This document shows, in pieces, positions 202 through 22,703 of a stretch of DNA of 22,703 bases (the stretch's first letter is position 1; each line of letters starts with the position of its first letter). The stretch covers positions 1 through 22,703 of the forward strand of contig CALSCO010000139.1 in assembly GCA_943704415.1 (NCBI GenBank). Reading direction: 5' to 3'. The notes beneath the pieces were generated by a model. It was not told the DNA's origin and searched no databases. It saw only the letters and a list, made by a program, of their open reading frames with translations. The translations under genes and the position numbers were made by a program. Origin of the DNA: Parvularia atlantis. Lineage: Eukaryota; Opisthokonta; Rotosphaerida.

Positions 202-249
202 GGAATGTTGTTGAATGATCGTGAAAGTTGAATGTTGTTGTTTCTCATC
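202..249 (+). repeat. Diverged block shared, inverted, with 21999-22041
   Basis: Read on the plus strand, this block shares GAATG, CGTGAA, TGAATGTTG and TTTCTCATC, in that order, with the minus strand of 21999-22041. I aligned them by eye with a few short gaps; roughly 36 of 50 columns agree. The copy at the right lies downstream of the Fanzor-like gene, so this may be a second, degraded copy of that element's 3' flank facing inward from the left. It could instead be a shared regulatory sequence. Confidence 0.4.
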
Positions 250-297
250 GACTGTGCACCGTGTCCGCGGTATAGATCGACAGTTGAGTGCGTCGAT

Positions 298-21963: not shown

Positions 21964-21998
21964 CATTTTGTACGACGACACCCCCTCAGTACAAAATG
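21964..21998. terminator. 10-bp inverted repeat just after the PXA/nexin-C stop
   Basis: CATTTTGTAC (21964-21973) and GTACAAAATG (21989-21998) pair perfectly around a 15-nt loop. The element begins 12 nt after the stop codon of the plus-strand gene, so it may shape that transcript's 3' end. It also lies at the far end of the minus-strand region downstream of the Fanzor-like gene and could mark the end of that element. Confidence 0.55.
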
Positions 21999-22041
21999 GA
22001 TGAGAAACAACATTCAGTTCATTCACGTTCATTCTACATCC
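21999..22041 (-). repeat. Block shared, inverted, with 202-249
   Basis: On the minus strand this reads GGATG, then GAATGAACGTGAATG, then CTGAATGTTG and TTTCTCATC. The same words occur in the same order on the plus strand at 202-249. It lies about 200 nt beyond the Fanzor-like stop codon and directly adjoins the 10-bp inverted repeat. Confidence 0.4.
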
Positions 22042-22241
22042 ACACGAAAGGAGTCAGTACCTGTCCGTGTTTCAAAAGGAGCGCACCTTTGCTTCGGGGT
22101 ATAGGCCCTAGTTCAGAGCCCGATCCGGGTCGGGCACGGTGTGCAATGTGTGCCTTGCCGGTGATCTTGTGAGTGAGGGAAGGCTGCCGGCACGAATGGT
22201 CAGCGCGCGATCGCCGGGCATGCCGGCGCGCCAGACAGACC
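22042..22241 (-). ncRNA. Candidate guide (omega) RNA scaffold region downstream of Fanzor-like gene
   Basis: This ~200-nt stretch follows the Fanzor-like stop codon, has no long convincing reading frame, and shows compact hairpins. CGCCGG/CCGGCG arms lie at 22212-22228 immediately after the stop, and GCCCGA/TCGGGC arms with a 6-nt loop at 22118-22135. In TnpB and Fanzor systems the guide RNA scaffold overlaps or follows the 3' end of the nuclease gene, with the guide lying past the element end. The location fits that pattern, but no conserved omega-RNA motif can be verified here. Confidence 0.3.
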
Positions 22242-22703
22242 TTACTTGCCACGGCGGAAGGCGGCGGGTCGCTCAAGGCCTGCCATGTAGCACTTCCACA
22301 GGTAGGCGATGTTGCGCGCAGCGCTGACGTCCCTGTTCCACGACCACGAATGATTTACACTTTTGCAGTGTTTCGTGGAGTGAAGGGACGGGTGCTGGCG
22401 CATCGCGGAGTGACACTGGCAGCACGTCGTCGCGTGCTCGAGCGAACGGTGGACGGACATCGTGGCGGTCGAGTGCTTCGCCTCCGTCTCCTGCCAGTGG
22501 CCCTCCAAGGCATCTGGCCCTTCTGCCAGAGTCCACCGCCGTCGCCGTCGTCCGGACCCTTCTTGCGCTTGGGCGGCATTGGGCGCCGCGCTCGCGTTAT
22601 GGCAGCTGATGAAAATGGTTTGTTGGAGTGATCCTTCGGGAGAGCGACGACGGTCGGCGAGCGGGTCTGGCCCACCCACTCACCCTCTTCTGTTCGTTTT
22701 CAG
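22242..22703 (-). CDS. Fanzor/TnpB-type RNA-guided nuclease, C-terminal part (runs off window)
   Basis: The stop codon is at 22242-22244. Reading leftward, residues encoded at about 22245-22460 show the family's C-terminal end. A zinc-ribbon-like segment (SLEHATTCCQCHSAM, then KHCKSVNH) is followed by the RuvC-III motif WNRDVSAARNIAYL, whose Asp is the third catalytic acidic residue. The tail GLERPAAFRRGK closes it, as in eukaryotic Fanzors (RP..F.RG). Fanzors are eukaryotic TnpB relatives, often carried by transposons or giant viruses, that cut DNA guided by an RNA. The second metal-binding pair is C..H rather than C..C. Further right the assignment is unclear: the frame is open to 22679, and a GTGAGT...TTCATCAG intron (22606-22683) would fit. 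That donor differs from the host GTGCGY rule, and base composition is less GC-rich than host genes. RuvC-I and RuvC-II would lie beyond the edge. Confidence 0.75.

Follow-up and report, generated by a model that had tools for sequence, protein, structure and literature searches.

The closest described systems are the 'ghost' Spu-1 elements of Spizellomyces punctatus and the TA-flanked Fanzor1 transposons. In the part of the Spizellomyces punctatus study devoted to them, the ghost Spu-1 elements are given as 134 copies with their ends present and no Fanzor ORF, and the ghost guide RNAs tested there functioned with SpuFz1 (Saito et al. 2023, PMC10432273). The relevant sections of Bao and Jurka (2013, PMC3627910) place Fanzor1 in TA-flanked, Tc/mariner-type inverted-repeat elements, some of which carry the nuclease gene alone, and describe chimeric Fanzor elements as well, while the Fanzor signature, as set out in the corresponding part of Yoon et al. 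(2023, PMC10711439), includes E-x6-CxxC for RuvC-II. The repeat family found at our locus in Parvularia atlantis resembles the ghost Spu-1 elements, as portrayed in those pages (PMC10432273), in being short, present in many copies, bounded by inverted ends and devoid of a working Fanzor ORF. It differs in that the ghost Spu-1 ends are related there to those of a Fanzor element, whereas our family revealed no full-length Fanzor whose ends match, and in that both ends of its ORF are still recognisable. With the TA-flanked Fanzor1 elements, as far as they are characterised in the sections cited (PMC3627910), it shares inverted ends in several copies, a TA beside many of them and a Fanzor-type C-terminus, but the protein core is missing and no transposase with matching ends could be tied to it; because the core is missing, Fanzor1 and Fanzor2 are not distinguishable for this family. 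We consider it highly likely that the locus represents the 3′ half of a small, non-autonomous DNA transposon derived by internal deletion from an inverted-repeat element with a Fanzor-like (TnpB-family) gene. The family keeps its inverted ends, a leader and a zinc-ribbon/RuvC-III tail, has no RuvC-I or RuvC-II in the copies read, and is repeated throughout the genome.

The window, i.e., the whole stretch of 22,703 nucleotides that was analysed, is contig C37 of a genome assembly of 16.25 Mb in 616 contigs. Its GC content is about 0.70 over most of its length and falls to 0.602 in positions 22001-22500, in agreement with the lower GC pointed out in the original prediction. The latter had described positions 22242-22703 as the C-terminal end of a Fanzor-type nuclease at the window edge and had thought it more like a gene of a mobile element than one of the host. 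The mobile nature is supported: this 462-bp stretch has 26 matches in the genome with 74-100% identity, 21 of which fall within subfamily A1 or the A1 leader, the other 5 within subfamily A2. At the protein level, the C-terminus has 24 matching places, distributed over 23 contigs. According to the alignment of 18 extracted copies, the element extends leftward beyond position 22242 to about 21982, so that positions 21982-22703 (minus strand) hold the right-hand, 3′ part of an A1 element whose 5′ part lies beyond the contig end. In seven copies homology stops at the base matching 21982, and in an eighth it stops one base sooner. The other contig end (1-270, minus strand) carries the left-hand, 5′ portion of an A1 element in the same orientation, with 84% identity to the left part on contig C574. 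Elsewhere in the window, a sorting nexin is split over several frames (PXA, Nexin_C), as would suit a eukaryotic source, and Rfam gave no match in the window.

The two contig ends, 1-11 and 22693-22703, overlap by 11 identical bases and belong to the same element family in the same orientation; judging from these letters, the contig would be either circular or linear with two element copies pointing the same way at its ends. In addition, 16 of the 21 A1-type DNA matches lie less than 500 bp from a contig end, and the match on C595 starts at base 1. The assembly thus broke inside the A1 repeat, in the window too, and because it breaks inside such repeats, intact copies may be unassembled.

Subfamily A2 comprises loci on C504, C15, C28, C31, C304, C111, C119 and C597, whose tails are 49-67% identical to that of the window. 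It also matches PF07282, and the fourth zinc cysteine is kept in six of its eight loci. Both subfamilies keep the start and the tail of the ORF. Since the joints between start and tail differ between A1 and A2, the two subfamilies look, from their sequences, like separate deletions of related parents.

The right inverted end of the window copy occupies 21982-22038 (minus strand; GATGAGAAACAACATTCA... when read on the plus strand), and in most copies this end reads GTACTCAGGGG. In C524 and C574, the leader runs back into a left end with the inverse sequence of the right end. In the window, the left inverted end lies at 209-270 (minus strand), with a TA directly before it at 271-272, and aligns with the right end with a score of 42, a value reached by none of 2000 random pairs. 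Higher scores were obtained for the left end of C574 against the right end of C83 (62) and for the two ends of C304 (54), and the ends of C504 (16) and C111 (25) are not above chance. A TA follows the right end in 8 of 11 A1 copies (not in the window, C613 and C59) and adjoins it in 6 of 8 A2 loci; before the left end it is present in three of the five A1 copies read and missing in C571 and C247. The genome has one transposase-like match each to DDE_3 (G000:C200:2953-3348) and DDE_1 (G000:C463:9337-9780). The open frames that contain them are 412 and 463 aa long, and neither contig has an A1 end match; they are possibly partners of the element or domesticated genes.

The minus-strand frame 22242-22679 is open over 145 aa from stop to stop, and it contains what the original prediction had read there, namely zinc ligands of CxC type, NRDVSAARN and an RPAAFRRG tail in the order of TnpB and Fanzor proteins. 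The C-terminal zinc-ribbon/RuvC-III remnant of the TnpB/Fanzor-like protein, stop codon included, lies at 22242-22454 on the minus strand, as delimited with PF07282 and guided_TnpB. All following coordinates within it are on the same strand. CCQC, the first half of the zinc ribbon, is at 22413-22424; HCKSVNH, its second half without the second cysteine, is at 22350-22370; and the RuvC-III pattern (RD followed by (N/G)AARN) is present as NRDVSAARN at 22311-22337, which reads NRDVNAARN in other A1 copies and NRDVDAARN in C230. RPAAFRRGK extends to the stop codon, and RPAAFRR is found only in A1 and one related fragment on C162. A complete C4 zinc ribbon is not present, as the second CxxC reads CKSVN and the fourth cysteine is missing; SVN[HY] replaces it in all eight A1 copies covering the site. 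The RuvC-II glutamate of the Fanzor pattern E-x6-CxxC is likewise absent from the window copy, where LEHATTCCQC has a serine seven residues before the CxxC.

Profile searches of this tail, which had been proposed as a check, do place it at the TnpB C-terminus in PF07282, NCBIfam guided_TnpB and a PHROG transposase profile, but with weak scores throughout. The window frame scores 16.9 bits against PF07282 (E=0.0072), below the curated cut-off of 26.3 bits, and the sister copy on C162 gives E=2.3e-4; seven of eight relatives scanned match this family at E<=1. Against guided_TnpB, the tail aligns to positions 347-387 of 389, with E=0.056 for the window and E=0.0021 for C162, both far under the cut-off of 100 bits. 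The corresponding PHROG values are E=0.066 and E=0.0058. The consistent placement over the three libraries, weak as each score is, supports the homology of the window tail to the extreme C-terminus of TnpB/Fanzor. The proposed C-terminus of a Fanzor-type nuclease is therefore upheld as regards the homology of the tail, but the view that this tail ends a nuclease running off the window is not supported.

Upstream of the tail, the zinc ribbon is preceded by MPPKRKK with a start codon within about 50 codons (about 150 bp) in C162, C520 and C415, and the order met when reading upstream from the zinc ribbon in the sister copies is MPPKRKK, a short leader and the inverted end. In the window, MPPKRKK, a basic, NLS-like start of a mini-ORF, is at 22559-22579 on the minus strand. 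The RuvC-I aspartate (DPG or D-x-G) is absent from the mini-ORF and the part upstream of it in the copies read, and RuvC-I and RuvC-II are absent upstream of the tail in the sister copies that can be read further, which leave no room for a core. The original prediction had looked for an upstream RuvC-I/II acidic pair and had held that upstream sequence lacking any RuvC-like core would tell against it; the sister copies show only MPPKRKK, leader and inverted end there, which tells against a nuclease gene in the element itself, though not in its descent. In the genome as a whole, the OrfB core profile PF01385, which is bacterial and could overlook a divergent Fanzor1 core, has matches on C533, C141, C574 and C174 only; the 23 contigs carrying a tail of the window type are not among them. 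A full-length parent, or a full-length Fanzor with related ends, was not found in the assembly, which breaks in these repeats, and the deletion is only inferred because no such parent was found.

A full-length working Fanzor gene, with its core past the contig end at 22703, would fit the fact that the window stops there and that the assembly breaks in the repeat, so intact copies could be absent from it. We regard this as extremely unlikely, since the window reads 280 bp beyond the zinc ribbon, via MPPKRKK and into the leader, and meets no core. The same order of zinc ribbon, MPPKRKK and leader is repeated in C162, and C520 and C415 show it up to the leader, their left end being different. Moreover, the window copy is frameshifted by an 8-base insertion between MPPKRKK and the tail, which puts the start out of frame with the tail. 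This frameshift also bears on the reading that the mini-ORF, with its NLS-like start and zinc ribbon, is a functional small protein, for instance one that binds DNA or RNA and regulates the element. In its favour, C162 and C520 keep an uninterrupted frame between MPPKRKK and the tail, and start and tail have persisted in A1 and A2 alike. Against it stand the damaged window frame, two stops in the mini-ORF of C92, the zinc ligand lost in every A1 copy that covers the site, and the absence of an excess of synonymous changes, as 5 of 22 distinct substitutions in the A1 mini-ORF are synonymous compared with 24% expected without selection (p=1.0). This count is a small one of 22 changes and omits codons 40 on of C524, codons 100 on of C247, codons 1-70 of C477, codons 23-26 and 47 on of C571, and codons 25-28 of C520 and C247. 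Within the limits of such a small test, the mini-ORF evolves without protein-level constraint. The lack of purifying selection, the frameshift and the stops together indicate that the mini-protein is probably not needed for the spread of the element, and a functional small protein is thus very unlikely, if slightly less so than a full-length gene.

The likeness to TnpB could also be due to chance, the segment belonging to an unrelated zinc-finger family or a non-coding repeat. The weak single-copy scores (PF07282 E=0.0072; guided_TnpB 0.056) are compatible with this, as is the finding that neither the window tail nor a profile of eight relatives matched any solved structure and that viral contigs gave no relative. 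Yet three libraries agree on the C-terminal position, A2 yields the same Pfam family in spite of tails only 49-67% identical, and the same genome harbours undoubted TnpB/Fanzor relatives that form mosaics with the window family; chance resemblance is accordingly hard to credit.

For the preferred reading, a gutted element of Fanzor-like descent, we propose that the parent was a terminal inverted-repeat transposon bearing a Fanzor-like gene, from which an internal deletion would have removed the cutting core, the MPPKRKK start being presumably the old N-terminus of the nuclease. A transposase acting in trans, able to recognise the ends and to insert at TA, would have mobilised the copies. More tentatively, the right end, which has been retained, may still code for a guide-RNA scaffold that a full-length nuclease encoded elsewhere could use, in line with the proposal made for ghost Fanzor elements. 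Past the stop codon, a block (22098-22161, minus strand), common to A1 and A2 and in part to a third fragment (A3), is, from the comparison of copies, a possible scaffold. Alignment-based folding of two candidate blocks, with 11 sequences in each alignment, gave covariation terms of +0.06 and -0.04 kcal/mol, the latter for block 22098-22161. When the 3′ regions of an A1 copy and an A2 copy were folded, the z values were -1.8 and +0.8; in these two blocks and two 3′ regions, folding and covariation give a guide-RNA structure no support. If the proposed origin is correct, this genome would lend itself to testing whether 'ghost' copies devoid of Fanzor act as guide-RNA sources. Furthermore, when a C-terminal zinc-ribbon motif lies at a contig edge, sister copies should be read upstream before a nuclease gene is called.

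Several lineages of decayed Fanzor/TnpB elements coexist in this one small GC-rich eukaryote genome, which yielded gutted copies but no intact one. A lineage probably of Fanzor2/IS607 type, called family B here, is clearly TnpB/Fanzor on the strength of its matches to guided_TnpB (L031, E=5.1e-11 over 175-330; L010, E=2.8e-6 over 306-352). Its pieces carry DPG, E-SYTSKT-CGWC (E-x6-CxxC) and RDINGARN, so the published Fanzor expression is present in pieces, although no single open frame read has all of it. Family B forms mosaics with the window family, from which it differs by another core, other ends and another C-terminal sequence; its 5′ end has GG adjoining AGACC in C520, C415 and C533. We take this 5′ end to encode the MerR-like helix-turn-helix of IS607 TnpA; Pfam gave no match for the 37-residue helix-turn-helix piece, and the genome has eight matches to the resolvase family PF00239. 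When one family-B piece was compared with solved structures, the best match was 'TnpB-like protein L79' (E=0.016), followed by unrelated proteins. The pieces L031 (C533), L083 (C141), L036 (C357) and L010 (C538) each have deletions or frame changes.

Among the mosaics, L040 (C520, about 380-800) and L041 (C415, about 240-700) pass from an IS607-type left end with a TnpA-like start into an A1 tail. Because the B left end and the A1 tail meet at an identical point in C520 and C415, between flanks that differ, the sequences suggest that these mosaics themselves move. L055 (C574, 3625-4700) combines an A1 left end and leader with a family-B RuvC-I core, followed by the inverse of the family-B 5′ region. 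It could be imagined that two unrelated mobile systems, an IS607-type and a TA/inverted-repeat Fanzor element, swap halves and that gutted copies of both spread while supplying guide RNA for a shared nuclease, but we hold this to be rather improbable. Neither the gutted copies nor the several Fanzor lineages and their mosaics make the window segment an RNA-guided nuclease. A viral origin was considered and rejected, as viral contigs, scanned twice with queries from family A and once with family B, yielded no relative.

Some minor features of the window copy and of the genome may be added. A leader intron (GTGAGT ... TTCATCAG) is possible at 22606-22683 on the minus strand, as judged from its letters; the original prediction had called the splice donor different from that of the neighbours, and GTGAGT, at 22683 in the window, corresponds to GTGGGT at the matching site in C162, C524 and C574. 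An intron over the A1 stop codon, from GTAAGG at ~22247 to CTCACAAG, was rejected, since in the alignment GTAAGG occurs only in the window copy and C60; the site reads AACTAA in most other copies and AACTGA in C230 and C106. L009 (C566, 1372-1674) is a lone zinc ribbon of TnpB type (PF07282, 39.8 bits) with no core in the translated stretch. Finally, L017 (C26, 1567-2060, minus strand), with DLG and EEYTSKTCGACG, represents a further TnpB/Fanzor lineage, which matches guided_TnpB with E=8.5e-9.
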